Assembly (NCBI GenBank): GCA_947503625.1
Contig: CANNEK010000002.1
Span: 806,001-870,000 of the forward strand
Reading direction: 5' to 3'
Origin: an uncultured Kordiimonas sp.
Lineage (GTDB): Bacteria > Pseudomonadota > Alphaproteobacteria > Sphingomonadales > Kordiimonadaceae
DNA: 64,000 nt
A model generated the notes under the pieces. That model had not been told where the DNA came from. It saw only the letters and a list, made by a program, of their open reading frames with translations, and searched no databases. Numbering within the stretch: the stretch's first letter is position 1; every line of letters starts with the position of its first letter. The position numbers and the translations under genes are program-made. Shown one piece after another: positions 1 to 17,700 of this stretch.

Positions 1-453
1 GATAACGTGGCTTATGGCCCCCGCATTCACGGTATAGCTGCCGACCGGACATCGCTGGACGAAATCGTGGAATCGTCCCTTGAAAAAGCGGGCTTGTGGC
101 AGGAAGTTAAGGACAGACTGGACGACTCCGGGATCGCTCTTTCCGGTGGGCAGCAGCAACGCCTTTGTATCGCGCGCGCTATTGCGGTAAGTCCGGAGGT
201 CATTTTGATGGATGAACCCTGTTCTGCACTGGACCCGATCGCGACCGCCAAAGTAGAGGCCTTGATCGACGAACTGTCCGGGCGATATGCTATCGTGATC
301 GTTACACACAGTATGCAGCAAGCTGCCAGAGTGTCTCAAAAAACCGTTTTTTTCCATCTTGGGGAAATGATTGAGCAGGGTGACACGACGCAGATTTTTA
401 CTGCTCCGCGAGAAGAGCGTACACGAGATTACATAACCGGTAGATTCGGATAA
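1..453 (+). CDS. pstB: Phosphate ABC transporter ATP-binding protein PstB, C-terminal part (5' end outside window)
   Basis: The open frame runs in from the left edge, so only about the last 150 residues are present. It shows the ABC signature (LSGGQQQR) followed by the Walker B stretch ([13 protein letters not shown]) and the H-switch ([13 protein letters not shown]). The DEPCSALDP form and the immediate phoU neighbour identify PstB, the cytoplasmic ATPase that powers high-affinity phosphate import through PstA/PstC with PstS. The end (RDYITGRFG) is typical of the family. The stop lies 11 bp before phoU, so the two are very likely co-transcribed. The Walker A motif lies outside the window. 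Confidence 0.95.
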
Positions 454-464
454 GGGTCAAGGCA

Positions 465-1154
465 ATGAACCAGCATATCTTGAGCACATACGATGATGAG
501 TTGAAAGAGGTGCGCAGCGTAGTCGTGCGGATGGGCAGCCTTGCTGCAGAGCAGTTAGCTGATTCTATGCGGGCACTGAGAGAGCTTGATACAGAGTTGG
601 CGGAACTGACCCGTGTTGCGGACAAGAAACTCGACGCACTGGAAGTTATTGCGGAGAACACCGTGGTTGGTGTCTTTGCCCGCAGGGCACCGGTAGCCGA
701 CGATTTACGGGAAGTTGTGTCAGCGCTTAAAATGACCACAATGATTGAACGGATAGGCGATTATGCAAAAAACATCGCTCGCCGCACTCTCGAGATTGCT
801 GATGGGAAAGGGGTAATCCTGATGCCGCAGCTTCTGGAGCAGATGTCAGCGGAAGCGCACGAGATGATCCAGGATGTAATGGATGCATATGTGAAGCGTA
901 GCGCGGATGATGCCGTTGCCGTGTGGGAACGGGACGATCACCTCGATAACCTGTATGATTCCACATACCGGCAGATTTTGGCCCGGATGATGGAAAACCC
1001 CGACCAGATCGCTGTCTGGAGCCACTATCTGATGATTGCGAAAAATCTGGAGCGGATCGGTGATCAGGCGACCAATGTGGCGGAGCAGGTTTTCTATACA
1101 ATTAACGGAGAGTTTCTTGAGGATGCCCGTCAGAGGCGTAACGCTGGAGATTAG
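465..1154 (+). CDS. phoU: Phosphate signalling protein PhoU
   Basis: This is a 229-residue, all-helical protein of normal PhoU length, built as two related three-helix-bundle halves. Each half carries the acidic metal-binding style motif of the family (ERIGDYAKNIARR around residue 93 and ERIGDQATNVAEQ around residue 195). PhoU links the Pst transporter to the PhoR/PhoB two-component system and keeps the Pho regulon off when phosphate is plentiful. It directly follows pstB, as in the usual pstSCAB-phoU order. Its promoter must lie upstream, outside the window. The gene converges on the minus-strand gene ending at 1251. Confidence 0.96.
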   Translation: MNQHILSTYDDELKEVRSVVVRMGSLAAEQLADSMRALRELDTELAELTRVADKKLDALEVIAENTVVGVFARRAPVADDLREVVSALKMTTMIERIGDYAKNIARRTLEIADGKGVILMPQLLEQMSAEAHEMIQDVMDAYVKRSADDAVAVWERDDHLDNLYDSTYRQILARMMENPDQIAVWSHYLMIAKNLERIGDQATNVAEQVFYTINGEFLEDARQRRNAGD

Positions 1155-2735: not shown

Positions 2736-3299
2736 ATGAGCGATGAGCTACAAATCCATGAAAGGGCTATTGGCCGTGTAAGTGTTGTTTGGTTCTGTCT
2801 GGTATGTTTCTGTTGTGCTGGTTTATGGTTTTTTTCTCCCCAGCCTGAACTGATTTCTTTGGCATTGTTCATCAACCTCGCTGTTCTTTCATTCTATGAT
2901 TTCCATTACTATCGTTTACCTAATCTTCTGACCCTCTGCCTCTTTGTTACTGGTTTGCTTCACGTCTGGTTTGCGCCTCGCTATAGCCTCGATGATCATC
3001 TTATTGGTGCCGCGATTGGCCTTGTTTTCTTTCCTCTGTTGAATGCCGTTTATAGCCGGGTGCGTGGGCGGCAGGGAATCGGGTTGGGTGACGCCAAACT
3101 GCTCGCCGGACTCGGTTTATGGTTTGGCTGGCAGTCTTTGCCGTTTCTTCTGTTGATCGCATCTGTTACGGGGCTGATTTCTGCCATTTTCGCTCAGTTT
3201 GCCTCTGAAAAATCGACCAAAGATACAATCATGACGAAACCATTGCCTTTCGGTGTTTTCCTGGCATTTGCAGGTTGGCTGGTTTGGCTCTTTTTTTAA
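2736..3299 (+). CDS. Type IV prepilin peptidase (A24 family), GspO-type
   Basis: About 187 residues with six or so membrane segments and the two aspartates of the A24 peptidase family: one in FYDFHYYRLPN and one in the GxGD-type motif GLGDAKLL. These enzymes cleave the leader of type IV pilins and T2SS pseudopilins at the inner membrane. The protein lacks the N-terminal cysteine-containing methyltransferase domain of full-length GspO/PilD, so it resembles the short, TadV/CpaA-like form. The T2SS operon 6 kb downstream has no prepilin peptidase of its own, so this is its likely processing enzyme. I chose ATG 2736 (GGAAG upstream) over TTG 2691, which has no well-spaced ribosome site. Confidence 0.85.
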   Translation: MSDELQIHERAIGRVSVVWFCLVCFCCAGLWFFSPQPELISLALFINLAVLSFYDFHYYRLPNLLTLCLFVTGLLHVWFAPRYSLDDHLIGAAIGLVFFPLLNAVYSRVRGRQGIGLGDAKLLAGLGLWFGWQSLPFLLLIASVTGLISAIFAQFASEKSTKDTIMTKPLPFGVFLAFAGWLVWLFF

Positions 3300-3363
3300 A
3301 GCCTATCGCTAAATACCTATTAATAATGGAAAAAACTGATCGCATGTCGTCGTGAAAACAAGC

Positions 3364-3413
3364 ATGACAGCAATGTTACAAAAACGGTAAAACTTCCGAA
3401 AAGAAACTGTCAC
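3364..3413. promoter_or_regulatory. Pho-box-like elements upstream of the lipoprotein/receptor pair
   Basis: Read on the minus strand, 3381-3364 is TTGTAAC-ATTG-CTGTCAT. It has the 7-4-7 layout of a PhoB box, with a perfect second half and a first half matching at most positions. A plus-strand half-site CTGTCAC follows at 3407-3413. The region 3300-3522 holds no gene. PhoB control is plausible given pstB-phoU at the window start, but the boxes are imperfect and face opposite ways. Confidence 0.4.
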
Positions 3414-3522
3414 AAAACCCCGTTAAAGGTCTGGCCACATGAGCTGGCATGCGACTTTGCTGGCCAATAGCGAATGCAAAACGATTATTTCAGGTGGCGG
3501 ATCTCGTCCAACGGGGAATACG

Positions 3523-6402
3523 ATGACAAACCTTGACCTTCTTAAGAAAACTTTGCTGGCTGCGGTTGCCTCTGTGGCGCTGGTAGCTTGCGGCGATGAC
3601 AGTACAGAGCTTCAGTCACCAGGAACAGTGGCGCCGAACCCGGGCACAGGCGGTGGCGGCGACGGTGGCGGCGACGGTGGTGGTGATGGTGGCGGTGACC
3701 CAGCTGTTAAAGTTGGCCGTGGCGGCATCGAGTATACATCTGCTGGCAATTGCCCGACAGGTACTACCTCCACAACCGTTGGCGAGCAAACGCATTGCAC
3801 TCTCTCTGGCACCATCACGAGCGACGTTACCTTAACGTCTGGTAACATCTACCAGTTGTCCGGCAAAGTTGCAGTTGGTGTTGACACTGGCGCAGACGGA
3901 TCAGCCGCTGCTGGTGATGCTGCAGTTCTGACCATCGATCCCGGTGCTGTTTTATACGGCGCCACGGCGACAGACGTACTGGTTATATCTCGTGGTTCTG
4001 AAATACAAGCCAACGGTACAGCCAGTAACCCGGTCGTGTTTACATCAGCCCTTGATCTCGATCTTGCCACCGAGCTTGGTCTCAATGCTCCGTCCTCTTT
4101 CAACGGTGCGCTTCTTGAAGAGCCATTTACATCTGAGTGGGGCGGCATTGTTGTCAACGGCCAGGCCAGCATCAATACGTGTAACGGTTCTGGCACATGT
4201 GAAGCCGAAGGCGAAGGCGACAGCGGCCTTTATGGCGGTGACAACGATACAGACTCAAGCGGTACCATGCGGTACGTGCAGGTCAAGTATGCCGGTAACC
4301 CGATTACATCAGAAGATGAGTTGAACGGCATCGCTTTCCAGGGTGTCGGTTCAGGCACAACACTTGAGTTTATTCAGGTGCATAACGGCGCAGACGACGG
4401 CATCGAATTCTTTGGTGGCACCGCGCAGGCAAAATATCTTGTTATTACCGGCGCTGATGATGACAGCCTGGACTGGACACAAGGATGGCGGGGTAAAGGT
4501 CAGTATGTGATCATTATCCAAAACCCGGCCCAGCCAGCTTCCGACCAGGGCATCGAAGCGGATAACTTTGGCGACGGCGAAGACTTCTTGCCTCGCGCAC
4601 AACCGCAGCTTTCAAACATGACTATTGTTGGTTCAGGTTCCAAAGGCGGTGAAAGCGATATCGGTATGTTGCTGCGTGCCGGAACAGGCGCCAACATCTG
4701 GAACACGGTTGTTTCCGATTTTGGCGATGCGTGCCTGGATATTGATGACAACTCGACTTTCGCAAGCGCTGGTTCCAGTGCTACCAGCCTGAGCGGTAAC
4801 CTGACAATCGAGTCAACGCTGCTCGGCACTGACTGTGTAGAGGTGTTCAACGACGACGGAAACGTCTTTGACCTTGAAGCCTTCTTCACCAATCAGGCCA
4901 ACAACGTTGTTGGCCCGACCACTCTGTCGAACAACTTCATCAATGGTTCCGCGGAAAATGCGGTAATAGCAACTGACCCGAGCGCGGTTAGTGCTTTCTT
5001 CGATAGCGTTGATTTTGCTGGTGCGGTTCAGAGCGACTCTGCTGCTGACAACTGGACATTGAACTGGACTTACGGTCTTAATCCCGATCCCGAGTGCCCA
5101 ACAGGTACCACAGCTAACTCAGATGGCACTGTTTGTACGCTGGCCGGCACCTATACCAATGACCTCCGTCTTGTGTCTGGTCTTACGTATCAGCTTTCAG
5201 GCAAGGTTGTGGTTGGTGTAGATATGGGTCCGGACCCGGCAAGCCCGCTTGCCGCGGGTGACGCTGCTACGCTCACGATCGAACCAGGCGTGACCATTGT
5301 TGGCGAAGACCAGACAGCATATCTGGTGGTGTCACGTGGATCAAAGCTGAATTCCAACGGCACAGTTGATGCGCCAGTGACATTCACGGCAATCAACCCT
5401 GACACACGCGATCTTGATGTGGATACGTCACTTTGGGGCGGTCTGGTTGTCAACGGCCGCGCAACCATCAACACTTGTAACGGTTCCGGAACATGTGAAG
5501 CTGAAGGAGAAGGCGACAGCGGCCTCTATGGCGGTGTTGACGACACTGACGACAGCGGCCAGATATTCTATACCCGCGTGGTGTACGCCGGTAACCCGAT
5601 CACCTCAGAGGACGAGCTGAACGGTATCGCTTTCCAGGGTGTAGGTTCTGCAACTGAAATTGACTTCCTGCAGGTTCACAACGGCGCAGACGATGGTGTC
5701 GAGTTCTTTGGTGGCACCGCACGGGCCAAACACCTCGTGATCACTGGCGCTGACGACGACAGCCTGGATTGGACACAGGGGTGGCGCGGCAAGGTTCAAC
5801 ACCTTGTCATCGTTCAAAACCCGAACCAGCCAGCAACTGATCAGGGCATTGAGGCCGATAACTTTGGCGACGGCGAGGACTTCCTGCCACGTGCTCAGCC
5901 CATGATCGCAAATGCAACAATCGTTGGTTCAGCGGCTGTCGGCGGCGAGAGTGATATAGGTATCCTGCTTCGTGCCGGAACAGGTGGTAACATCTGGAAT
6001 GCTGTTGTTGCTGACTTCGGTGATGCCTGCCTCGACATTGATGACACGTCCACTTTTGTTTCTTCTGGTGCAGATGCGACAACCTTGAGCGGCAGCCTGA
6101 CCATGGAATCGACGCTCCTGAGCGACACGTGCCCTGAAGTGTTTAACGACGATGGCAATGACTTTGACCTGGAAACCTGGTTTACCAACCAGAACAACAA
6201 TACGGTTGCAACAGACACTCTTGCTGCTCTGACGGGTGCAGCCAGCTTCAAGACCTACATCAACGGGTCGGTTGAAAATGGCGTGACCGCAACGGATCTC
6301 AGCGCCATCGACAGCTTCTTCGATGCCACCACATATGTGGGCGCTGTTGAAAACGCAGCGAGTGACTGGACGCTTGGCTGGACAGTCTGGCTCAACCAAT
6401 AA
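3523..6402 (+). CDS. Internally duplicated acidic outer-surface lipoprotein paired with a TonB receptor
   Basis: From ATG 3523 (GGGGA ribosome site) the product has 959 residues. The upstream ATG at 3439 would only add 28 residues before the signal peptide. A lipoprotein signal ends in LVAC (Cys23). A Gly/Asp linker (residues about 43-59) follows. Two homologous halves of about 440 residues begin at C-P-T-G-T-T near 3751 and 5095. Each half contains TCNGSGTCEAEGEGDSGLYGG-like, HNGADDG, TGADDDSLDWTQGWRGK and QGIEADNFGDGEDFLPRAQP blocks, and looks like a beta-helix fold with many acidic turns. The role is unknown. Co-directional linkage to a TonB-dependent receptor suggests a surface substrate-capturing or calcium-dependent partner. 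Confidence 0.8.
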   Translation: MTNLDLLKKTLLAAVASVALVACGDDSTELQSPGTVAPNPGTGGGGDGGGDGGGDGGGDPAVKVGRGGIEYTSAGNCPTGTTSTTVGEQTHCTLSGTITSDVTLTSGNIYQLSGKVAVGVDTGADGSAAAGDAAVLTIDPGAVLYGATATDVLVISRGSEIQANGTASNPVVFTSALDLDLATELGLNAPSSFNGALLEEPFTSEWGGIVVNGQASINTCNGSGTCEAEGEGDSGLYGGDNDTDSSGTMRYVQVKYAGNPITSEDELNGIAFQGVGSGTTLEFIQVHNGADDGIEFFGGTAQAKYLVITGADDDSLDWTQGWRGKGQYVIIIQNPAQPASDQGIEADNFGDGEDFLPRAQPQLSNMTIVGSGSKGGESDIGMLLRAGTGANIWNTVVSDFGDACLDIDDNSTFASAGSSATSLSGNLTIESTLLGTDCVEVFNDDGNVFDLEAFFTNQANNVVGPTTLSNNFINGSAENAVIATDPSAVSAFFDSVDFAGAVQSDSAADNWTLNWTYGLNPDPECPTGTTANSDGTVCTLAGTYTNDLRLVSGLTYQLSGKVVVGVDMGPDPASPLAAGDAATLTIEPGVTIVGEDQTAYLVVSRGSKLNSNGTVDAPVTFTAINPDTRDLDVDTSLWGGLVVNGRATINTCNGSGTCEAEGEGDSGLYGGVDDTDDSGQIFYTRVVYAGNPITSEDELNGIAFQGVGSATEIDFLQVHNGADDGVEFFGGTARAKHLVITGADDDSLDWTQGWRGKVQHLVIVQNPNQPATDQGIEADNFGDGEDFLPRAQPMIANATIVGSAAVGGESDIGILLRAGTGGNIWNAVVADFGDACLDIDDTSTFVSSGADATTLSGSLTMESTLLSDTCPEVFNDDGNDFDLETWFTNQNNNTVATDTLAALTGAASFKTYINGSVENGVTATDLSAIDSFFDATTYVGAVENAASDWTLGWTVWLNQ
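3748..6402 (+). repeat. Tandem intragenic duplication (two copies of about 1.3 kb)
   Basis: Copy 1 spans about 3748-5091 and copy 2 about 5092-6402. Several protein blocks are nearly identical between copies (CNGSGTCEAEGEGDSG, YAGNPITSEDELNGIAFQG, GADDDSLDWTQGWRGK), whereas synonymous positions differ. The duplication is therefore old and maintained by selection, not a recent tandem amplification. Confidence 0.85.
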
Positions 6403-6413
6403 GCCAACATTGA

Positions 6414-6450
6414 AACGCCGCAGCAGGGCGTTCTGCTCTGCTGCGGCGTT
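6414..6450 (+). terminator. Perfect 13-bp hairpin between lipoprotein and receptor genes (no U-tract)
   Basis: AACGCCGCAGCAG pairs perfectly with CTGCTGCGGCGTT around an 11-nt loop. It starts 12 bp after the stop at 6402 and ends 22 bp before the next start. The 3' side reads CCGCATAAAT, so the T-tract of an efficient intrinsic terminator is missing. It may be a partial terminator or an mRNA 3'-end stabiliser that makes the lipoprotein more abundant than the receptor. Confidence 0.6.
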
Positions 6451-6471
6451 CCGCATAAATTAGAAAGCCGA

Positions 6472-9090
6472 ATGGTGGCCGAGATGAAATTGAACCACAG
6501 AAATTTTAAGCGCCTGCTGATGGCTTCGACAGTGCTGATGATGCCTGCCGAAGCTTTCGCGCAAGACCAAGTAGAAATACCGCAGCCAGATATCGAGGAA
6601 ATCACGGTTCTTGGCCGCTACATCCCTGATGAAAAACGGGCAACGTCGGAAATTGCCAATGTTCTCGATTCTGAGGCCTTTGCACTGGCGGGCGATGCCG
6701 ACATCAGTTCCGCACTCCAGAGGTTGCCAGGCTTGTCGCTGGTTGGTGGTAAATACGTCTATGTTCGAGGCCTGGGTGAAAGATACTCCTCAACGCTCCT
6801 GAACAATTCCGGCATTCCAAGCCCGGAGCCGCTCAGAAAAGTTGTGCCGCTGGATATCTTCCCGACCAGCATCATTGAATCTGTGCTCGTGCAAAAAACC
6901 TTTTCGCCTGAATACCCCGCCGAGTTTGGTGGCGGTGTGATCGATCTGCGTACCAAGGCCGTGCCGGACGAGTTTATTTTCGAAGTTGGTATCTCTGGTC
7001 AATACAACTCGGAAGCAACAGGCAAAGATGGCCTGAGCTACGACGGTACCGGTTCGGAAATCTTCGGCTTCGGTGGTTCACGCCGCAACATTCCGGATGA
7101 GATTTTGCAGGATGTTACGCTTGCAAGTCTTACCGAGGAAGAACTTGAAGCAGCCGGTGAGGCCCTGCCAAACATCTGGTCCATTGATGGCGAATCACTG
7201 TATCCGGGGGCCGGACTGAACTTCATTGTTGGTGACCGTTTTGACGTTGGTGACGAGGGAGCCTTTGGTTTCTTTGCCGCCGTTGATTACGACGTGAACA
7301 CGCGCAACCGGGTTGGGGTCCGCAGGATTGTTGTTACATCTGACGCCGGACCGGTTATCCGTGCCAATTTTGCACCGGAGGTCTGTGAAAGCGGCGAGTT
7401 TGAAAACGTTGATATTGATGGCTGTGGTCTGCGACAGACCAACCTTGATGTTGCACTGAACGGTCTGCTGGCATTTGGCTACGAATTCAACAGCGATCAC
7501 TCAATCTCATACACGGGCACTGTGCTGCGCCAGTCGACTAAACGGTCACTGATCGAAAAGGGTATTTTCCCGCTAGAGGAAGACATTCGGACACGCTCGA
7601 CCATTGACTGGATTGAAAGCCAGGTCTGGACCAATCAGGTCAGTGGTGAACACTTTGTCCCTCTGTTTGGTGACAGCGACACCTTCCAGCAAACCGAGAT
7701 CAACTGGCGTGCGAACATTTCCCGGTCTGACCGCGATGTGCCGCTGCGCCGTAACACGGTTTACGAGTTTGACGTCAACCTGGGCACAGACCTTATTCTG
7801 GCGCGCCCTGACAGCAACACAACGATCTACAATGCGCTTGATGAAGAGACCAAAGAGTTTGGCATCGATTTTGTGCAGCCGGCCTATATAGCTGATTTTC
7901 CTGTCGATATCATTGGTGGTTTCACCTACGCGGATAAAGACAGAAGCTTTGGTCTTGTACGTTACAGCTTTGATATTCCGCGCGGTTCTTCGCGTGAGTT
8001 GAGAGCATTGGCGCCTGAAATCATTTTTGGCCCAGCCAATATAGGGCCAGACCAGATCAGGCTTACAGAAGTGTTCGATGCGTCTGATTTTTACACCGCA
8101 ACTTTTGAAAATGTACAGGCCTACCTGGGTGCGGATATCGAGCTTTCACCAAAGGCGCGTTTGGCTTTTGGTTTGCGCTATGAAGACAGTTCTCAAATTG
8201 TCGATACGGCGGAACGGATCACTTTGGACCCACTGCGAATTACACAACTCGGTGAGTTCTGGCTGCCATCAGCAACATTCACCTATGAAATTGTCGAAAA
8301 CATGCAGGTGCGGTTCGCGTTCAGCCAGACCCTGAACAGGCCTGACATGCGGGAACTTTCAACGGCACGCTTTGTCGATGACGAACGTAACTTGCCGGTT
8401 GAAGGTAATCCGGAACTGCGTATTGCCGAGATTGACAATTATGATGCCCGATTTGAATGGTATTTCGCATCTGGTGAAAGCCTGACGATTGGCGCTTTCT
8501 ACAAGAAATTCACCAACCCGATCGAACAAAGCAGCCGCGCATTTGGTGAAGGCCGACTGCTGACCTATGTAAACGGCGAAACAGCTGAGCTTAAGGGTGT
8601 AGAGGTCGAGGTCGAAAAAATCCTGTTCTTCCAGGATTGGTTCGGTTGGGACTGGCTTGGGTCTCGAGAGATGTTTGTAAAGGCTAATGGCTCTTACATT
8701 GACGCTGAAACCAGAACTGCAGAAGAAGATTTGGGCATTGTCACGAATGCAGTTCGTCCTTTCCAGGGTCAGTCTGAATGGCTTGCAAACCTGCAATTCG
8801 GTTGGCGCGATTATGACCGGGGCGAGAATCTTGCTGTGATTTTGAACTACACAGGCCGCCGTCTGGCGCTTGTTGGTGTGTTTGAAAACCCGGACGAGTT
8901 TGAGAGCCCGCCCATTATGCTCAATGTCGCTTACAGTAAAGAGTTCAACGTGGGTGATAGCCTGCTCGAACTGAGCGTTGAGGCGGAAAACCTGCTAGGT
9001 GACGAAATTGAGTTTAGCCAGAACGGTGTGATAACCGAAGGTTACGAACTGGGTCGCACAGTTTCACTGGGGCTGAAGTTCAAGTTCTAG
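6472..9090 (+). CDS. TonB-dependent outer-membrane receptor
   Basis: An 872-residue protein, a usual length for this family. A signal peptide ends around residue 27 (AEAFAQ). A TonB-box-like stretch follows (EEITVLGRYI). The plug domain (about residues 50-165) carries the RGLGERYSSTLLN and PSPEPLRKVVPLD signatures, then a 22-strand barrel ends in the aromatic-terminated strand (SLGLKFKF). It would import a ligand across the outer membrane using TonB energy. The substrate cannot be read from sequence. The Pho-like box upstream makes a phosphorus-containing ligand possible. The partner lipoprotein lies immediately upstream. An in-frame ATG at 6484 is an alternative start. Confidence 0.92.
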   Translation: MVAEMKLNHRNFKRLLMASTVLMMPAEAFAQDQVEIPQPDIEEITVLGRYIPDEKRATSEIANVLDSEAFALAGDADISSALQRLPGLSLVGGKYVYVRGLGERYSSTLLNNSGIPSPEPLRKVVPLDIFPTSIIESVLVQKTFSPEYPAEFGGGVIDLRTKAVPDEFIFEVGISGQYNSEATGKDGLSYDGTGSEIFGFGGSRRNIPDEILQDVTLASLTEEELEAAGEALPNIWSIDGESLYPGAGLNFIVGDRFDVGDEGAFGFFAAVDYDVNTRNRVGVRRIVVTSDAGPVIRANFAPEVCESGEFENVDIDGCGLRQTNLDVALNGLLAFGYEFNSDHSISYTGTVLRQSTKRSLIEKGIFPLEEDIRTRSTIDWIESQVWTNQVSGEHFVPLFGDSDTFQQTEINWRANISRSDRDVPLRRNTVYEFDVNLGTDLILARPDSNTTIYNALDEETKEFGIDFVQPAYIADFPVDIIGGFTYADKDRSFGLVRYSFDIPRGSSRELRALAPEIIFGPANIGPDQIRLTEVFDASDFYTATFENVQAYLGADIELSPKARLAFGLRYEDSSQIVDTAERITLDPLRITQLGEFWLPSATFTYEIVENMQVRFAFSQTLNRPDMRELSTARFVDDERNLPVEGNPELRIAEIDNYDARFEWYFASGESLTIGAFYKKFTNPIEQSSRAFGEGRLLTYVNGETAELKGVEVEVEKILFFQDWFGWDWLGSREMFVKANGSYIDAETRTAEEDLGIVTNAVRPFQGQSEWLANLQFGWRDYDRGENLAVILNYTGRRLALVGVFENPDEFESPPIMLNVAYSKEFNVGDSLLELSVEAENLLGDEIEFSQNGVITEGYELGRTVSLGLKFKF

Positions 9091-9105: not shown

Positions 9106-9131
9106 GAGCTTACCGCTGTTGCGGTGAGCTC
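9106..9131 (+). terminator. Hairpin after the TonB receptor gene
   Basis: GAGCTTACCGC pairs with GCGGTGAGCTC (one G-U pair) around TGTT, 15 bp after the stop at 9090. It has no T-tract, so intrinsic termination would be weak. A TATAAA element at 9169-9174 beyond it could serve the T2SS operon. Confidence 0.45.
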
Positions 9132-9210: not shown

Positions 9211-10056
9211 ATGGACAGGGTTGGAAATAGTTCAACTGGCAGGGTTATGCTTCAATCCGCGCCACGTTCCTTGCGCGTGGGCGTTTTATGCGTTGAGCTG
9301 CTTCTGGTTGCTCTTGTTGCTTACCAACTTGTGCTTCTTGTTTTTGATATGATGAAGGTTGATGCTGGCCCGCGTCCGTTAACGGTGCCCGGAGAGGTCT
9401 CCAGCGAAAAAGCAATAGACTCTGGACGCCTGGTTTCATTCGATCCGTTTTTTCGACAGATAGCGGGTGAGCTCGCAGTGACCCCATCAGCATCTGTCAG
9501 GGAGAGCTCTCTGCGGATTGAAGTTTTTGGCTTGCGGGCGACAGATGGGGGTGCGGGATCAGCAATCATAAAAACGCAGGACGGCGGCCAGAAACTTGTG
9601 ATGATTGGCGACACTGTTGTGCCTGGTGTAAGACTAAGTGCTGTTTATCCGGATCGCCTAGAGGTAAACCGCGCCGGCATTCGCGAAGCAATTTATATGA
9701 CGCCTCAACGGGCACGGCAGGATACTGGCGGGGAAAACCCTCCGGCACCAGCAACTGTAGCTGGGCAACCGCGAGCAACTTCAGGCTTCGACTTGGCCAA
9801 TATCGAACTGTCGCCGGTTCGGCGTGACCGGCGTATCATAGGCTTTCGGTTGCCGGACCCGCTGCCACTGCTGTTGGTGGGCTCGGGTCTTGAAGCCGGC
9901 GACGTTTTGACAAGTGTGAACGGCGAACCTCTTGCATCTTTTGAAAGGCTGCAGGAGGTTGGTGAGCAGATAGTCGGCTCTGACCGCCTGTCTCTGGAAA
10001 TTGAACGGCGTGGGGAACAGCGTCAGCTGAGCGTCAACCTTGGAGGGAACCGCTAG
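9211..10056 (+). CDS. gspC: Type II secretion protein GspC (inner-membrane clamp)
   Basis: A 281-residue bitopic protein with a short cytoplasmic head, one membrane segment (about residues 27-47, rich in L/V), a periplasmic homology region and a C-terminal PDZ-like domain (about 195-278, with GLEAGDVLTSVNGEP). GspC joins the inner-membrane platform to the GspD secretin and takes part in substrate choice. It opens the operon. A GGAG ribosome site lies upstream, and a TATAAA box (9169-9174) may mark the promoter. The gspD start follows the stop without a gap. Confidence 0.93.
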   Translation: MDRVGNSSTGRVMLQSAPRSLRVGVLCVELLLVALVAYQLVLLVFDMMKVDAGPRPLTVPGEVSSEKAIDSGRLVSFDPFFRQIAGELAVTPSASVRESSLRIEVFGLRATDGGAGSAIIKTQDGGQKLVMIGDTVVPGVRLSAVYPDRLEVNRAGIREAIYMTPQRARQDTGGENPPAPATVAGQPRATSGFDLANIELSPVRRDRRIIGFRLPDPLPLLLVGSGLEAGDVLTSVNGEPLASFERLQEVGEQIVGSDRLSLEIERRGEQRQLSVNLGGNR

Positions 10057-12030
10057 ATGACAAATACACTTCATTCAATGAAGGTGTTTATCTGCCTTTT
10101 TCTGGCGGTAACATGCGGTACAGCAGCCCTGTCACAGGACACTGGGCATATACTAAACTACCGTGACGCGGAAATCAGGGCATTTATTGATGATGTGGCG
10201 GCTATTACCGGTAGAACCTTCATCATTGACCCGCGAGTGCGCGGCAAGATCAATGTTGTGTCAACAGAAGCAGTAACCGTTGAAGGTGTGTTCCAAACCT
10301 TCTTGTCCGCATTGAAGGTCAATGGTTTTACACTGGTGCCTTCTGCGAGTGGTGCTTTTAAAATCATACCTGACGAAATTGCGGCACAAGATGCAGGCCC
10401 GGTAAATGAGGCCCGTACCGGTGATACGTTGGTCACCAGGGTATTCAGCCTTAGGTATGCGGATCCGCTCGCAGTTCAGGCCGCAGCAAAACCATTTGTT
10501 TTTAAAAATGGTCGGGTGTTTGCGCGTAAAGGCATGCCTGTCGTGATCGTGACGGACTATGCAGATAACCTGAACCGTATCGCCCAGCTTGTTGAAAGCA
10601 TGGATGTTGATCACTCGGTAATCCGGACACTTGCTTTGGAGAACACGTCTGCAACTGAAATGGCCGAGATCGCACTAAAGCTGGCGGCTCAGCCGGGATT
10701 TGAGGACAATATCCTCACATCGCTGACGGCGATGCCACTCGAATCGAGCAATACACTGATTCTAAAAGGTCCTGCCGATGTGATTGATACATTTATGCCG
10801 GTACTTGTGGAACTGGACCAGAACAATGCCTCACGTGGTGATCTGCGGGTGATTTACCTGAAGTACGCAAATGCTGAAAAACTGCTTCCAATGCTGGAAA
10901 CGGTCACGCGGTCACTATCCCGACGTGATGCATCCGGCAATCCGCTCGCAACAGACGGTGACGTAACAATTTCTTCATATGCGGGCGCGAACGCGATTGT
11001 TATCAATGCCTCAAGCGATATGCAGCAGAGGATTGCTAATGTGATCAATATGCTGGACCTGCCGCGGGCGCAGGTGCTTGTCGAAGCAATTGTGGTTGAA
11101 GTGTCGGACAGGGCAGCGAAAGACCTCGGTGTGCAGTATATTCTTGCTGGTGGGGATAACAGCAGTATTCCGTTCACGATCGCCAACTATTCGAACACTG
11201 CACCCAATCTGCTCGCACTGGCGGGTGCCCTACAGTTACCAGATGACGATGATGATGACGATGACACCGATACCGCTGCCGAAGCATTCGGTGCCGCTGC
11301 AGTGGAGTCCCTGCTGGGGTTCAATGGATTTGGTCTCGGCATCGCCGGGGAAACAGACGGTGGTACTATATTCGGTGCTGTTTTAAACGCCGTGCAGCAG
11401 GACACTGGAAGCAATGTGCTGTCCACGCCGTCCATCATGACTATGGATAACGAGCCAGCCAAGTTCCTGTCTGGTCAGGAGATACCAATCTCGACGGGCG
11501 AGGCGCTAGGCAGTGCGAACATCAACCCGTTTCGTACGATTGAACGTAAGGATGTAGGCATCCAGTTAGAAGTGACGCCGCAGGTGAATGAGGGTGAAGA
11601 AATACGCCTGCATATTCGTCAGGAAATTTCATCTATCGCTGGCCCTGTTAGTTCGAGTTTTAGCGAACTCGTGACCAACAAGCGTGAAATTGAAACAACG
11701 GTGAGCATCAAAAACGGCGATATCGTCGTGCTTGGCGGTTTGGTTCAACAGGACGAAGTTACATCTGTTGAAAAAGTTCCGTTTCTTGGTGACATTCCAC
11801 TTTTGGGCAGGCTTTTCAGGTCCGATAGTAAAAGTCAGACGAAGACCAATCTGATGATTTTCTTGCGCCCGACGATCGTCAGAAGTGCTGAAGACGCACA
11901 AGCGCTTACATCTCAGAAATTCGATTATATTAGTGCCCAGCGAGCGCTGGTGAACCCTGGCGGCCTGTCACTGGAGCAACTCATCGATGAGGTTGTAGGG
12001 CCAAAGGCAACCCAGGATCTTAATAACTAA
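10057..12030 (+). CDS. gspD: Type II secretion outer-membrane secretin GspD
   Basis: A 657-residue secretin. A signal peptide (cleavage after about residue 27) is followed by the N0 domain (ILNYRDAEIRAFIDDVAAITG), N1-N3 domains, and the secretin core with NVLSTPSIMTMDNEPAKF and VVLGGLVQQDE near the C terminus. Fifteen such subunits form the outer-membrane channel. Unusual is a run of eight aspartates (residues 396-403, DNA 11242-11265) inside the secretin core. The ATG directly abuts the gspC stop, with GGAGGG as ribosome site. No pilotin gene of a known family is adjacent. Confidence 0.97.
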   Translation: MTNTLHSMKVFICLFLAVTCGTAALSQDTGHILNYRDAEIRAFIDDVAAITGRTFIIDPRVRGKINVVSTEAVTVEGVFQTFLSALKVNGFTLVPSASGAFKIIPDEIAAQDAGPVNEARTGDTLVTRVFSLRYADPLAVQAAAKPFVFKNGRVFARKGMPVVIVTDYADNLNRIAQLVESMDVDHSVIRTLALENTSATEMAEIALKLAAQPGFEDNILTSLTAMPLESSNTLILKGPADVIDTFMPVLVELDQNNASRGDLRVIYLKYANAEKLLPMLETVTRSLSRRDASGNPLATDGDVTISSYAGANAIVINASSDMQQRIANVINMLDLPRAQVLVEAIVVEVSDRAAKDLGVQYILAGGDNSSIPFTIANYSNTAPNLLALAGALQLPDDDDDDDDTDTAAEAFGAAAVESLLGFNGFGLGIAGETDGGTIFGAVLNAVQQDTGSNVLSTPSIMTMDNEPAKFLSGQEIPISTGEALGSANINPFRTIERKDVGIQLEVTPQVNEGEEIRLHIRQEISSIAGPVSSSFSELVTNKREIETTVSIKNGDIVVLGGLVQQDEVTSVEKVPFLGDIPLLGRLFRSDSKSQTKTNLMIFLRPTIVRSAEDAQALTSQKFDYISAQRALVNPGGLSLEQLIDEVVGPKATQDLNN

Positions 12031-12039
12031 GGAACGGCC

Positions 12040-13536
12040 TTGGACAACAAGCAGACACATATTCTGCGATACACGTTTGCTCGTGACTATGGTTTTGCCG
12101 TAGTGGAACATTCTTCTTCAGTTGCACTGATCGCCGTGCGCGAAGACGCAGATATGCGTATGCTTCCTGAAGTGCGCCGCGTTGTCGGTGTTCCGCTCAC
12201 TTTGGAAACCAAGACCAAACCAGACTTTGATACTCTGTTGTCGGACTTGCACGCGGTAGAGGGCATTAACACTGAAATCAGTGATGAAATGCCTGCTGAA
12301 AGCCTGGACCGTGCGCTTGAAGGTATGCCCGCTGTGGCGGATTTGCTCGCCAGCGAGGATGACGCGCCCGTTATTCGTCTGATCAATAGTCTGATTGCTG
12401 AAGCCGTCAAAAATGCTGCGTCTGATGTTCATCTGGAGCCGTTTGAAAACAGGCTGTCTGTCAGGCTTCGCGTTGATGGTGTTCTGACAGAGATCGCCAG
12501 TCTGGCCGCTCGGATGACACCTTACATCGTTTCTCGCATCAAGGTGATGGCACGACTGGATATCGCTGAAAAGCGTATTCCACAGGATGGAAGGCTTTCG
12601 CTGAAGCTGGGAAACCGCGTCTTTGATGTGCGGGTTTCCACACTACCCGCCAGGCATGGTGAACGCGTGGTCTTGCGTTTGCTTGATGCGGCGCAAGCGC
12701 ACTTCTCGCTCACTGATCTGGGTATGAAGCCCAAAACTCATGAAGGTCTTATGGATCTTTTGGCTGAGCCGAATGGGATTATTCTTGTGACCGGACCCAC
12801 AGGCTCAGGCAAAACGACGACCCTCTATGCAGGCCTGGGCCTTCTCAATGATCAGAGTCGTAATATCATGACGGTTGAAGACCCGGTAGAGTATGCTCTC
12901 GACGGTGTTAGCCAGACGCAGGTGAATGCAAAGGTCGGCATGACGTTTGCCTCTGGCCTTAGAGCTATTCTGCGTCAGGATCCGGACGTTGTGATGGTCG
13001 GCGAGATACGAGACATGGAAACCGCTGAAATGGCAATTCAGGCCAGTCTTACGGGCCACCTTGTTCTCTCGACGGTGCATACCAACAGTGCCATTGCTGC
13101 CATCACACGCTTGCGGGACATGGGCGTGGAGCCGTTCCTTCTATCGTCCACCGTCAAAGGCATCATGGCACAACGCTTGGTGCGTAAGCTGTGTGAGCAT
13201 TGCAAAGTTCCTGTGGATGAACCAGCAGTGCTTCTTCAGCAGATGGGCCTGCAACCGGGTCAGGCAGCAACACTTTATGAAGCGAAAGGGTGCTCGGCGT
13301 GTGGCGGCAAAGGTTATAGCGGCCGTATCGGTATATATGAACTGGTGAAAGTCGACAGTATCTTGCGCCGAATGATCCAGGAAGGCTCGTCCGAGCAGGA
13401 CATGGAAGGTGTGGCTTTCAAAAACAACGATACTTTGTCGGACAGCGGACGCGCCCTGGTTCTGGAAGGTGTCACGACTATTGAAGAGGTGCTAAGGGTA
13501 TCCCGGATCAAGGAGGCCTCCGGTGCAAGCCTTTGA
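12040..13536 (+). CDS. gspE: Type II secretion ATPase GspE
   Basis: A 498-residue AAA-type secretion ATPase of normal length. Walker A GPTGSGKTT lies at about residues 252-260, Walker B around 314-325 (DPDVVMVGEIRD), with Asp and His boxes between and after. A tetracysteine zinc site is visible as C385-x2-C388 and C418-x2-C421 (LCEHCK and GCSACGGKG). It powers pseudopilus assembly from the cytoplasm through GspL/GspF. The start is TTG at 12040, preceded by AAGGA. The end overlaps gspF by 14 bp, indicating translational coupling. Confidence 0.97.
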   Translation: MDNKQTHILRYTFARDYGFAVVEHSSSVALIAVREDADMRMLPEVRRVVGVPLTLETKTKPDFDTLLSDLHAVEGINTEISDEMPAESLDRALEGMPAVADLLASEDDAPVIRLINSLIAEAVKNAASDVHLEPFENRLSVRLRVDGVLTEIASLAARMTPYIVSRIKVMARLDIAEKRIPQDGRLSLKLGNRVFDVRVSTLPARHGERVVLRLLDAAQAHFSLTDLGMKPKTHEGLMDLLAEPNGIILVTGPTGSGKTTTLYAGLGLLNDQSRNIMTVEDPVEYALDGVSQTQVNAKVGMTFASGLRAILRQDPDVVMVGEIRDMETAEMAIQASLTGHLVLSTVHTNSAIAAITRLRDMGVEPFLLSSTVKGIMAQRLVRKLCEHCKVPVDEPAVLLQQMGLQPGQAATLYEAKGCSACGGKGYSGRIGIYELVKVDSILRRMIQEGSSEQDMEGVAFKNNDTLSDSGRALVLEGVTTIEEVLRVSRIKEASGASL

Positions 13537-14752
13537 ATACAGTGCAATTGACCGGGACGGTAAAACCCGGCAGGGCACCATATCTGCCGAAGGCGCACAA
13601 GAGGCGCGCCGTACCCTGCTTTCGCGCCAGCTGTACGCGACAGAAATAAAGCCCACTGGCGCGCGCAAAGCGGGTTTGACATCCATGTTGCCAAATCTCT
13701 TTCAGCGAGAGGAGAAGATCTCGTCTAAGGATCTGGCGCTTGTCACTCGGCAGATGGCTACGATGATTGAAGCGGCATCTCCTGTCGAGGAGGTGCTCGG
13801 CGCGCTTGCGCAGCAGGCCCAAAAACCGGAAACCAGAGCGGTCCTGTCGCGTGTCAGGACCAACGTAATGGAAGGAATGCGCCTTTCCCGGGCAATGGAA
13901 CAGGAAAAAGCAACTTTTGACACCCTGTATTGCTCCATGGTTGCCGCCGGAGAGGCTTCTGGCGCGCTGGGTGCAGTCCTCGCGAGGGTTGCTGAACATC
14001 GGGAAAAATCTGAAGAAACGCGCTCGAAAATACAATCAGCCCTGATCTACCCGGCTGTTTTGATGACAGTGGCCATCGGGGTCGTAACAGCTTTGATGGT
14101 TTTGGTTGTGCCTAAAGTTGTCGCTCAGTTCGATAGTTTTGGTAGTGAGTTGCCGGTGCTGACCCAGATTGTGGTCGCGGTTTCAGAGTTTCTGACAAAT
14201 TATGGATTGTTGTTAGCGGTGGCTATTGCATTGCTGGTATTGGGCTTTTCGGTCGCAATGCGCCGAGACAGGTTTCGTTATGCCGTGCACGCCCGCATGC
14301 TTGCATTGCCGCTTGTTGGCCGCCTCATTCGCTCCGTAAACGCTGCCAGGTTTTCCAGAGCGTTTGGTACCCTGGTGCTTGGCGGCAGCCCGGCGCTGGA
14401 AGCATTGGTCGCCGCGAAGGAAACCATTCGCAACGATCCGATAAAAACGGCTGTCATTGATGCCATCTCAAGGGTTCGCGAAGGTGGAGGCGTTGCCAAC
14501 AGTTTGCGACAGGTTGACGCCTTGCCGCCGATGTTGGGGTATATGGCTGCTGCAGGCGAGCGCAGTGGCCAGCTTGGAACCATGATGCATAAGGTGGCGG
14601 ACTATCTGGAGAGTGAATTTGATGGTTTTACCAAGTCAGCCTTGAGCCTTCTGGAACCCATGATCGTAATTATGATGGGCGGACTTGTTGGCGCAATTGT
14701 CATGTCGATCATGTTGCCTATTCTGAGGCTGAACAGCCTTGTCCTGTCTTAA
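13523..14752 (+). CDS. gspF: Type II secretion inner-membrane platform protein GspF
   Basis: A 409-residue polytopic protein with the two repeated T2SF domains: LALVTRQMATMIEAASP near residue 73, then FSRAFGTLVLGGSPALEALVAA near residue 275. Three membrane segments are present. It is the core of the inner-membrane platform that connects GspE motion to the pseudopilus. The start is GTG at 13523 with an ideal AAGGAGG seven bases upstream, inside the gspE end. Length and domain order match the family. Confidence 0.96.
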   Translation: MQAFEYSAIDRDGKTRQGTISAEGAQEARRTLLSRQLYATEIKPTGARKAGLTSMLPNLFQREEKISSKDLALVTRQMATMIEAASPVEEVLGALAQQAQKPETRAVLSRVRTNVMEGMRLSRAMEQEKATFDTLYCSMVAAGEASGALGAVLARVAEHREKSEETRSKIQSALIYPAVLMTVAIGVVTALMVLVVPKVVAQFDSFGSELPVLTQIVVAVSEFLTNYGLLLAVAIALLVLGFSVAMRRDRFRYAVHARMLALPLVGRLIRSVNAARFSRAFGTLVLGGSPALEALVAAKETIRNDPIKTAVIDAISRVREGGGVANSLRQVDALPPMLGYMAAAGERSGQLGTMMHKVADYLESEFDGFTKSALSLLEPMIVIMMGGLVGAIVMSIMLPILRLNSLVLS

Positions 14753-14762
14753 GGAGGAACCT

Positions 14763-15227
14763 TTGAAGCAAATGCTGGACAAATGTAAACAGTACCTGGT
14801 TGACGCGAGCCGTGATGATGCAGGTTTTTCGCTTATCGAGTTAATGGTTGTGATCGTCATCATGGGACTTTTGACGACCATTGTAGTCGTCAATGTGCTG
14901 CCAAGTCAGGATCGGGCTATGGTCGAAAAGGCACGAGCCGACGTTCGGTTGATTGAACAGGCGGTTGAGATGTATCGCCTGGATACACGGCGTTATCCAT
15001 CTCTTGAGGAAGGCATTGAAATATTGGCTCAGGCCCCGCGAGGTAACGGCTTGCGTACGGAAAGTTATATCAAGTCGCTCCCGACCGATCCTTGGGGAAA
15101 TCCTTATCAGTATCTCTATCCGGGAGAAAAGGGTGCTTTTGATGTGTTTTCATACGGTGCGGATGGTCGCACCGGCGGTGAAGGCCTGAATGCCGATATA
15201 GGTAATTGGGGAAGTGGACCTCAGTAA
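14763..15227 (+). CDS. gspG: Major pseudopilin GspG
   Basis: From TTG 14763 (AAGGAGG five bases upstream) the protein has 154 residues. ATG 14772 is the alternative; the TTG at 14739 lies inside gspF and has no ribosome site. The prepilin cleavage site is G21/F22 followed by SLIELMVVIVIMGLL, with Glu at +5. The C-terminal part (TDPWGNPYQYLYPG, FSYGADG, GEGLNADIGNW) is the calcium-binding region of GspG. It is the main subunit of the periplasmic pseudopilus and is processed by a prepilin peptidase, probably the one at 2736. Confidence 0.96.
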   Translation: MKQMLDKCKQYLVDASRDDAGFSLIELMVVIVIMGLLTTIVVVNVLPSQDRAMVEKARADVRLIEQAVEMYRLDTRRYPSLEEGIEILAQAPRGNGLRTESYIKSLPTDPWGNPYQYLYPGEKGAFDVFSYGADGRTGGEGLNADIGNWGSGPQ

Positions 15228-15716
15228 ATGGGAGCGCGGTGTAACACAGCAGGGTTTTCGCTTGTTGAAGTGATGATGGTGGTCGCCATCATCGGCTTGA
15301 TGACCGGTGCTGTAGTGCTTGCACTTCCTTCCCGGACAGACAATCTGACGACCGAACTTGCGCGCACTGAAAGGGCCCTCATAGCCCTCTCTCGCACCAG
15401 TGTTATGACGGGACGGATACTGGGTGTTCGTTTCGCTTCTGATGGCTTTGAGACCCTTGTTTTTTCCGATGACGGTTGGATGCAAAATGACGGCCTGCTG
15501 AAACACGATGCACGGCATTGGCCAGAACTTGATTTGTTGTCTCTCACAGTTGACGGCGTTGAAGCCGACATAGATAGCGGTGTTGCCGGGCCTCATCTCT
15601 GGTTTTTGCCAACTGGGGAATACCCCAGTTTTAATATCGTCCTTTCAGGTGGTAACGCCCGGGCGCACCTGAGCGCAAACGCGTCCGGGCCCATGAAGAT
15701 TTCCGGCGATGAATAG
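15228..15716 (+). CDS. gspH: Minor pseudopilin GspH
   Basis: A 162-residue protein starting at the base after the gspG stop. The prepilin site is G9/F10 SLVEVMMVVAIIGLM, with Glu at +5, followed by a beta-rich globular domain. GspH is a minor subunit of the pseudopilus. Position between gspG and gspI and the length support the assignment. Sequence identity among GspH proteins is low, so order is an important part of the evidence. The end overlaps gspI by 8 bp. Confidence 0.9.
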   Translation: MGARCNTAGFSLVEVMMVVAIIGLMTGAVVLALPSRTDNLTTELARTERALIALSRTSVMTGRILGVRFASDGFETLVFSDDGWMQNDGLLKHDARHWPELDLLSLTVDGVEADIDSGVAGPHLWFLPTGEYPSFNIVLSGGNARAHLSANASGPMKISGDE

Positions 15717-16101
15717 AAGGTGGTATAAAACTCTTCAGAACGGTCAAGAGGGGTTTTCTCTCATAGAGCTTCTGGTTGCAGTTGCCATTTTGTCTATTGC
15801 AGCTGTTGCATTGCTGGAAAGCCAGACGCAGGCCATTAATGTAGCTGGAAACCTCGAAAAACGCAGTCTTGCTTCAATTGTTGCCGAAAACAGACTGACG
15901 CTTGCTCTTGGTCATGTCGAGCAACCGGTGCCTGGCGCACGCAGTGGTTCTGAACAGCAAATGGGTGTGGATTTTTTGTGGACAGAGACAGTCAGACCTG
16001 CACCCGGCAATGACCTCATGGTGATCGAGGTTGTAGTGACCCCGCCATCGAACCGCACGCAAGAACTGGCCCGACTGGTCGGTTTCAGGAAAGTGCTCTG
16101 A
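15709..16101 (+). CDS. gspI: Minor pseudopilin GspI
   Basis: A 130-residue protein with prepilin site G15/F16 SLIELLVAVAILSIAAVALL, then a short domain with the GspI pattern (ASIVAENRLTLAL near residue 62). GspI forms the pseudopilus tip with J and K. The ATG at 15709 overlaps the gspH end. The size matches the short GspI family. Confidence 0.92.
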   Translation: MNRRWYKTLQNGQEGFSLIELLVAVAILSIAAVALLESQTQAINVAGNLEKRSLASIVAENRLTLALGHVEQPVPGARSGSEQQMGVDFLWTETVRPAPGNDLMVIEVVVTPPSNRTQELARLVGFRKVL

Positions 16102-16102
16102 G

Positions 16103-16720
16103 ATGAAGTTGCAGGCATTGCAAAACGAGCACGGTTTTTCACTGGTAGAAACACTTGTCGCCACTTTTATCTTCGCGCTTATTACGGCTGCGAGCGTTGC
16201 TCTTTTAACAGGGTATCAAGATGGCAGAATATCGCTAAAAGATGCAGACGAAAAACTAGCTAAACTAGAGATGTCGCGCGCTATTCTGCGCCGTGATTTT
16301 CTTGCTGCAGTTGTTCGGCCTGTTCGGGATGAGCTGGGGGGCGTTCTGCAGCCTTTCGAGGCTGGAGAACACATGCCCGATGGCATGCAGTTGCGCCTCG
16401 TTCGTGCCGGGCACATGGGAGCTAAAATTCACGGTAACCTGTCACAGGTGAAACGAATTGAATATCTGTTTCAGGACAGAAAATTGATCCGTCGGACCTA
16501 TATCAGGTCCGATGTCACGCCGGGTGCCCGCTTTCAGGATCAGGTTCTTTTGACGGACCTGGAACAGGTTTCCTTTCGACTTGCTACAGATGGTATCTGG
16601 TCTGAAGAGTGGGGAACAATTGGTCGCACATCGTCGTTGCCGCAAATGGCTGAAATCAGGTTGCAGTTTGAAGGCGATCGTTACGCTACAATGGCATTTA
16701 TCGTGGGAACCGGGGTATGA
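16103..16720 (+). CDS. gspJ: Minor pseudopilin GspJ
   Basis: A 205-residue protein with prepilin site G11/F12 SLVETLVATFIFALI and Glu at +5. The middle has the usual GspJ pattern of a long helix, RRDFLAAVVRPVRDE, and a later R-x-Y motif (IRRTYIRSD). It is part of the pseudopilus tip. It starts 1 bp after the gspI stop, and its stop overlaps the gspK ATG (ATGA). Confidence 0.92.
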   Translation: MKLQALQNEHGFSLVETLVATFIFALITAASVALLTGYQDGRISLKDADEKLAKLEMSRAILRRDFLAAVVRPVRDELGGVLQPFEAGEHMPDGMQLRLVRAGHMGAKIHGNLSQVKRIEYLFQDRKLIRRTYIRSDVTPGARFQDQVLLTDLEQVSFRLATDGIWSEEWGTIGRTSSLPQMAEIRLQFEGDRYATMAFIVGTGV

Positions 16721-17700
16721 GGTGCTCTCGTTTCAGAAGCCTGTTGGCTGAACGAGGGGCGGCCCTCGTAACGGTGCTGTTGCTGGTTTCTATCATGGCC
16801 ATTGGTGCCGTTGTGACATTTGAAGCATTGGGGTATTCCATTAAACGATCAGGTGCGTTGCGGACTTTCGATCAGGCACATCACTATGCGTGGGGCGGTG
16901 AGCAGCTCTCTGTTGCTGCGGCAGAACAGCTTTATTCGAACAAAGTTGTTCTGGATAGCCCGCGCGCGATCTCTTTTCCCATTGAGGGTGGGAGAATTGA
17001 GGGTCTGATCACCGATAAAAGCAATTGTTTCAACGTAAACAGCCTTGTAAGCAGCACGGAAAACGCTGGCTATTTGGCAAACCCTGTTCAGGGACAACAT
17101 TACAACCGCCTGCTCCAGTCTCAGGGGTTTGCGCAGAGGCAAGCTGGTCAGTTAGTCGCAGCACTGACAGACTGGCTGGATAGCGATACACGGGCAAGTT
17201 CGCTGGGCGCTGAAGACTATGACTACGGTGTGCTTCAGGAACCATACAGAACAGCTAACGGACTGATGGCGGACCTATCGGAATTGCATTTGGTGAAAGG
17301 GTATGATCCTACAGTTTTCGAAGCCATAATACCTTTCTTGTGTGTTGATGATTCCACTTTGCCAGGTGCCCTGAATGTCAATACTTTGACCGTTCAACAG
17401 GCGCCGCTTTTGGTTGCGCTGATTGCTGGGGATTTCGGGCTTGGTCAGGCGATAGAGCTTATCCTCGCGCGCCCCGGGCCGGGTTATGATGATATCGCAG
17501 ATTTCTGGCTTGAACCCGAGCTGGCAAACCGCAATATCGATCAGTCGATTCGGGAAAAAACGACGATACGGCCTCATCGGTTCGAAAGCAGAGTACGTGT
17601 TCGCTACTATGATGCAGTAAGCCATCTGACAGCAGAAATTCGCGTAGACGACTCTGGTGCAGCTCGAATTGTCCGTCATCATTTGGGAGTTTTACCGTGA
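16717..17700 (+). CDS. gspK: Pseudopilin tip protein GspK
   Basis: A 327-residue protein, the largest pseudopilin. The leader site is G14/A15 followed by ALVTVLLLVSIMAIG. The usual Glu at +5 is absent, which is the known peculiarity of GspK and fits a tip position. The helical domain includes TDWLDSDTRASSLGAEDYDY near residue 150 (calcium-site type) and LNVNTLTVQQAPLL near residue 222. The start overlaps gspJ and the end overlaps gspL by 4 bp. Confidence 0.95.
   Translation: MRCSRFRSLLAERGAALVTVLLLVSIMAIGAVVTFEALGYSIKRSGALRTFDQAHHYAWGGEQLSVAAAEQLYSNKVVLDSPRAISFPIEGGRIEGLITDKSNCFNVNSLVSSTENAGYLANPVQGQHYNRLLQSQGFAQRQAGQLVAALTDWLDSDTRASSLGAEDYDYGVLQEPYRTANGLMADLSELHLVKGYDPTVFEAIIPFLCVDDSTLPGALNVNTLTVQQAPLLVALIAGDFGLGQAIELILARPGPGYDDIADFWLEPELANRNIDQSIREKTTIRPHRFESRVRVRYYDAVSHLTAEIRVDDSGAARIVRHHLGVLP

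Follow-up and report, generated by a model that had tools for sequence, protein, structure and literature searches.

The closest described counterpart of the locus presented here is found in Caulobacter crescentus, in which the lipoprotein ElpS (CC0170) is encoded ahead of the TonB receptor CC0171, followed by gspC-N (PMC2996285). Induction of ElpS by phosphate starvation was described in 2010: the protein is made only in low phosphate, and elpS is not induced by iron depletion; ElpS is a surface lipoprotein, the proteolytic release of which depends on the type II secretion system (T2SS) (PMC2996285). Overexpression of ElpS raises extracellular alkaline phosphatase activity, although purified ElpS is without phosphatase activity and deletion of elpS does not lower that of the cells (PMC2996285). 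Moreover, cc0171 RNA is not phosphate-regulated, deletion of cc0171 leaves ElpS production unchanged, and cell phosphate did not differ between rich and poor medium (PMC2996285). A study of 2024 showed that the Caulobacter PhoB regulon takes in the T2SS and several TonB receptors (PMC11208175).

Other systems share part of this arrangement. Fjoh_3856/Fjoh_3857 of Flavobacterium johnsoniae (FI, PUSIII), which we liken to the present pair by description, are likewise an abundant low-Pi lipoprotein with a TonB transporter, for which the authors report a weak resemblance to polygalacturonase; they differ in belonging to the Bacteroidetes, with a T9SS and sigma/anti-sigma genes (PMC8115612). SusCD and PusCD also combine a surface lipoprotein and a TonB transporter, PusCD being induced in low phosphate, but SusD is mainly helical with Pfam families of its own, whereas the lipoprotein described here is predicted to be all-beta and has no Pfam SusD match. 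Klebsiella pullulanase resembles ElpS as a surface lipoprotein with T2SS-linked export; however, pullulanase crosses by the T2SS, while in Caulobacter ElpS does not depend on the T2SS for reaching the surface, but only for its release.

Gene content of the locus and kinship with ElpS

The window, meaning the whole 64-kb stretch of DNA that was analysed, comes from a marine alphaproteobacterium of Kordiimonas type, the nearest named loci in homology searches being those of Kordiimonas. It carries, in plus-strand order, pstB (after pstSCA), phoU, two small ORFs (the first of them on the minus strand), gspO, the lipoprotein, the TonB receptor, gspC, gspD, gspE and the rest of a T2SS cluster (Table 1). 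The longest ORF of gspO begins at TTG 2691, with an ATG at 2736.

Table 1. Features of the locus, in window coordinates
Feature	Position	Strand	Basis
pstB, 3' part	1..453	+	pstS-C-A-B-phoU order in own genome; pstSCA just upstream of window
phoU	465..1154	+	TIGR02135 E 1.1e-59; PF01895
gspO, prepilin peptidase	2736..3299	+	PF01478 E 1.1e-21; kept upstream of lipoprotein in relatives
Pho-box-like 7-4-7 direct repeat TTGTAAC-ATTG-CTGTCAT	3364..3381	-	17.8 bits; poorly conserved
Tandem array of three 7-bp half-sites CGGTAAA-ACTT-CCGAAAA-GAAA-CTGTCAC	3385..3413	+	14/14 Kordiimonas orthologues
-10-like TTAAAG about 10 bp past the array, inferred promoter element	3423..3428	+	Sequence and alignment
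ElpS-type lipoprotein, 959 aa, two beta-helix repeats	3523..6402	+	Homology; AlphaFold model; beta-helix matches
Beta-helix repeat 1, residues 77-467	3751..4923	+	Structure matches (VIA-align); 64% identical to repeat 2
Beta-helix repeat 2, residues 521-901	5083..6225	+	Structure matches (VIA-align)
Intercistronic 16-bp hairpin without U-tract, lipoprotein/receptor spacer	6414..6450	+	Folding energy and compensatory changes
TonB-dependent receptor, 872 aa, CC0171-like	6472..9090	+	PF00593 E 4e-24; PF07715 E 2e-8; downstream of lipoprotein in relatives
Hairpin, receptor/gspC spacer	9106..9131	+	z -3.3 for spacer
gspC	9211..10056	+	PF11356 E 1.4e-14; sole match in genome
gspD, secretin	10057..12030	+	TIGR02517 E 3.5e-160
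gspE, ATPase	12040..13536	+	TIGR02533 E 5e-194
gspF to gspN, remaining T2SS cluster	13523..20013	+	Assigned by order and pseudopilin-type N-termini

A sequence-only reading of this DNA had described a duplicated acidic lipoprotein and a TonB receptor on one strand. Indeed, the two repeats of the lipoprotein are 64% identical over 454 columns, the mature protein has a pI of 4.05 (net charge -104), and the receptor matches the Pfam barrel and plug families. That reading left out the T2SS genes on both sides of the pair, with gspO just upstream and gspC-gspN just downstream, and it was mistaken in taking the lipoprotein family to be without an assigned function, since the protein is homologous to Caulobacter ElpS, which is induced by phosphate starvation and neighbours a T2SS of the PhoB regulon (PMC2996285, PMC11208175).

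The assignment to the ElpS family appears safe but indirect, as it was made through homologues of the Caulobacteraceae rather than the CC0170 record; it is safe because in these homologues both the order of genes and the LAGC lipobox agree with what was published for ElpS. In Caulobacteraceae genus g274 they are about 486 aa long, with the order lipoprotein-TBDR-gspC-D-E-F, and the window lipoprotein is 42% identical to a Phenylobacterium protein (L118; E 5e-76 in the own genome). The window gene is homologous to these ElpS-position lipoproteins and has the TonB receptor immediately downstream, then gspC onwards. Gene order, lipobox and a homologous lipoprotein are common to this locus and Caulobacter ElpS/CC0171/gspC-N, and phosphate-linked regulation is probably so too. 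In contrast, the window protein has two beta-helix repeats where ElpS (about 50 kDa) has one, gspO lies directly upstream instead of downstream and reversed, a pst-phoU operon is found 2.4 kb upstream, unlike at the Caulobacter ElpS locus, and the lipobox Cys is followed as CGDD, compared with CGGA in the Caulobacteraceae relatives that were inspected.

The phoU context stressed by the sequence-only reading is true of the window, where 2.4 kb separate the end of phoU (TIGR02135) from the start codon of the lipoprotein gene, but this adjacency is limited to a subset of 4 of the 14 Kordiimonas loci, and we rejected the phoU neighbourhood as defining context on that count. The constant neighbours of the lipoprotein in Kordiimonas are gspO, the TonB receptor and gspC-N; the gene order is identical in all 12 genus loci with a contig long enough, and across most of the taxonomic order. 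Two small proteins predicted to be exported (1251-1829, minus strand; 2127-2531, plus strand), which had no Pfam match at cut-off, are conserved throughout Kordiimonas between phoU/gspO and the pair, and both remain in Kordiimonas loci without the pst operon. Directly after gspN, a small lipoprotein-like ORF (19983-20534) is possibly a secretin pilotin or accessory protein.

Pho-box-like sites and probable phosphate control

Sites were scored with a weight matrix that had been built manually on the E. coli-type Pho box at a stage when no relative had yet been inspected. The 7-4-7 element pointed out by the sequence-only reading (3364-3381) is real and is the best match in the window, the runner-up reaching 12.0 bits; a Markov model of the window predicts 0.026 such sites per 64 kb, counting both strands, and 8e-5 for the upstream region of 223 bp. 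As for its conservation in orthologues, the box is common to only about 2 of the 14 Kordiimonas relatives, with a recognisable full copy among relatives in L038 only. Alignment of the 14 Kordiimonas upstream regions placed the conserved block instead at the neighbouring plus-strand array (3385-3413), whose three direct half-sites lie 11 bp apart and whose position, about -105 to -121, is kept in all 14 orthologues. The CTGTCAC half-site proposed earlier (3407-3413) is present, not as a lone element but as the last of these three.

Relatives have better half-sites at the same spacing (GTGTCAT-ACTT-CCGAAAC-CAAA-CTGTCAC in L033, CTGTCAT-ACTT-CCGAAAC-TAAA-CTGTCAC in L035, CTGAAAC-CAAA-CTGAAAC in L042), and such substitution is what selection on a regulator site would be expected to produce. 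The array is likely to be the principal PhoB site. The Kordiimonas array is degenerate, which counts against our best explanation: in 8 of the 14 loci, only about 1% of dinucleotide shuffles do as well as the three-half-site score, which is marginal in four and, in two (L039, L040), not above their own shuffles. The window takes its place among the eight via its site on the minus strand; the array on its plus strand has the same sequence as those of L032 and L036 (shuffle fraction 0.010-0.013). Taken as a whole, the locus has direct repeats of PhoB-box type, 7 bp long and spaced by 4 bp, to an extent that exceeds chance expectation. As a control within the same genome, which encodes both PhoR and PhoB, a 7-4-7 box precedes the predicted start of pstS by about 128 bp.

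The test was extended to 106 loci of the family (350 bp upstream and 100 dinucleotide shuffles each). Sites of at least 11 bits were found in 58 loci (5.1 expected) and of at least 15 bits in 29 (0.36 expected from shuffles); where the receptor is directly downstream, 27 of 82 reached at least 15 bits (0.26 expected), as did 24 of the 74 receptor-linked loci without a nearby pst/phoU match (0.26 expected). These counts are not independent trials because the loci are related, but the excess spans alpha- and gammaproteobacteria. Moreover, in about six unrelated lineages, the flanking sequence that was retrieved contains pst or pho genes: the Kordiimonas subset, Rheinheimera/Arsukibacterium (with phoB-phoR), a Nitrosomonas MAG, a gammaproteobacterial MAG, a Myxococcota MAG (pst and phoBR) and a Caulobacteraceae genome. 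By the criterion that the sequence-only reading had itself named, orthologous pairs lacking any Pho box and lying far from pst/pho genes would have spoken against the phosphate regulon; the enriched boxes and pst/pho neighbours favour it, and on both grounds phosphate control of the lipoprotein-receptor pair appears well supported by sequence comparison.

The strict 7-4-7 pattern was rejected as a regulon list: it has 14 matches in the own genome against 3 for the reversed control, and most fall inside or beside apparently unrelated genes, so the pattern alone does not define a regulon. A near-perfect Pho box TTGTCATAAATCTGTCAC (L187, G000:C1:1326541-1326558) lies in the same genome between divergent genes, with a low-molecular-weight phosphatase/arsenate-reductase-like and aquaporin-like pair on one side and a DedA-like membrane protein on the other (named from N-termini only). 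No literature on phosphate and TonB in Kordiimonas was found.

The lipoprotein, its fold and possible functions

The lipoprotein gene starts behind a conserved GGGGAA ribosome site. Its product has a signal peptide with lipobox, MTNLDLLKKTLLAAVASVALVAC followed by GDD, kept in orthologues; the lipobox ends in LVAC, Cys23 is codon 3589-3591, and GDDSTELQSPG follows. An SPG-type motif 6-12 residues past the lipobox Cys (residues 23-36 in the window, 3589-3630) is found with a loose pattern in 43 of 48 alphaproteobacterial members versus 2 of 22 gammaproteobacterial members, many of which have CGGDI(N)I in its place; it is possibly a surface-sorting or release signal.

Directly past the lipoprotein stop codon, the intercistronic hairpin reaches -33 kcal/mol (z -4.9), with compensatory changes at 10 of 15 pairs in 12 Kordiimonas sequences (0/500 shuffles; slid controls far lower). 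A strong hairpin (z < -2.5) is present in 37/37 two-repeat alphaproteobacterial loci tested versus 1/114 random stretches, and only one of the 37 has a U-tract after it; the same spacer hairpin occurs in L032-L056, L118, L132 and L135. Judged from similar hairpins that separate transporter genes, the probable role of this one is to keep the lipoprotein:receptor ratio high, which agrees with Caulobacter, where elpS is induced and cc0171 constitutive (PMC2996285).

Given the release of ElpS by the T2SS, the separate regulation of cc0171 and the rise in extracellular phosphatase caused by an inactive protein in Caulobacter (PMC2996285), and since the cluster adjoins gspC-N in alphaproteobacteria, the lipoprotein might be mainly a secretion-linked scaffold or activator of T2SS-exported phosphatases at the surface, with the TonB receptor doing separate work. 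We regard this as possible, but less likely than not. However, the receptor is directly downstream in 82 of the 106 loci, and most gammaproteobacterial loci have the pair without any T2SS gene within about 6 kb; thus, it is the pair that forms the stable unit, rather than the secretion system.

The AlphaFold model of the lipoprotein (mean pLDDT 87.7) is nearly all beta, with two confident right-handed beta-helices. The nearest solved chains are alginate epimerases, polysaccharide lyases, polygalacturonases, phage tailspikes, NosD and pertactin-type chains (VIA-align at the level of single domains, Z about 18-23, about 10% identity). A lyase, hydrolase or epimerase-like enzyme acting on an extracellular polysaccharide or teichoic-acid-like polymer could be imagined from these matches and from a conserved Asp/Glu cluster (HNxxDDGxEFFGG...TGxDDDSxDW...EADN), in which case the receptor would import the products and the phosphate link would be regulatory. 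We find this unlikely. The fold is common to many non-enzymes, such as NosD and the pertactin-type chains of the same match list, identity is low, and no catalytic signature of a named family was shown; the matches are generic for the right-handed beta-helix, and therefore no enzyme family was assigned. Searches of the lipoprotein against Pfam and NCBIfam gave no family at cut-off, and its alignment profile matched nothing up to E 1 among PDB sequences. Whole-model Foldseek TM-scores were low, probably because two domains were searched together.

The weakest alternative, an uptake pair for iron, heme or another non-phosphorus ligand with Pho-box-like sites by chance, is very improbable: TonB receptors mostly serve metal chelates and FecA accounts for the receptor's sole PDB sequence matches, but the Pho-box enrichment and recurrent pst/pho neighbours across lineages, as well as the response of Caulobacter elpS to phosphate and not iron (PMC2996285), argue against it. 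The receptor has a TonB-box-like EEITVLG, and no N-terminal signalling domain was matched.

Repeat number is one, two or three among family members (lipoproteins of L031-L144, L201-L216). In the repeat tree, the repeats of one lineage cluster together so frequently that one shared ancestral duplication is excluded, the d1 rows needing at least 13 changes on well-supported branches. The sequences would fit a history of many independent duplications or one in which gene conversion repeatedly homogenised the repeats. A single-repeat homologue adjoins phoBR and pstSCA genes in a Myxococcota MAG (L136).

A proposed phosphate-linked module of the outer membrane

Homology, gene order, sites, hairpin and fold prediction together point to a PhoB-regulated pair of ElpS-CC0171-type lipoprotein and TonB receptor heading a T2SS cluster, which we consider likely. 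In low phosphate, PhoR/PhoB would be activated and PhoB would bind the array, perhaps also the minus-strand box. The lipoprotein would be made in excess of the receptor because of the conserved hairpin after its stop codon, would receive its lipid at Cys23 and would then be exposed on the outer surface; in Caulobacter, both surface display and T2SS-dependent release have been shown. Its two acidic beta-helices might bind a substrate of poly-anionic or polysaccharide type that probably bears phosphorus, might keep a secreted phosphatase close to the cell, or might do both, and the receptor would import the product by TonB energy. We infer the import by the pair, the phosphorus in the ligand, a bound cation at the acidic face and the role of the hairpin. 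With its net charge of -104, the lipoprotein is unlikely to bind phosphate directly unless a cation forms a bridge. Capture of a phosphorus-containing ligand by the pair, as the sequence-only reading proposed, is a plausible hypothesis drawn from the regulation, and as a whole its interpretation is partly supported.

More tentatively, ElpS-type tandem beta-helix lipoproteins might be a third kind of surface partner of TonB importers, besides SusD and the small hemophore-type lipoproteins: an acidic, cation-bridged groove would grip extracellular phosphorus-rich polymers in low phosphate and feed the receptor, and repeat number would have changed again and again, altering reach or avidity. We consider this broader idea rather unlikely.

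ElpS and CC0171 have been known since 2010 as a phosphate-starvation protein and its neighbouring receptor (PMC2996285). The new details are the two 64%-identical beta-helix repeats, the tree against one ancestral duplication and the 16-bp hairpin with compensatory changes. The comparative data turn an observation in a single species into a widespread phosphate-linked outer-membrane module and name its parts, on the basis of Pho boxes in both alpha- and gammaproteobacteria, recurrent linkage to pst/pho genes, a lipoprotein-receptor unit that is stable even without the T2SS, and the repeat tree.
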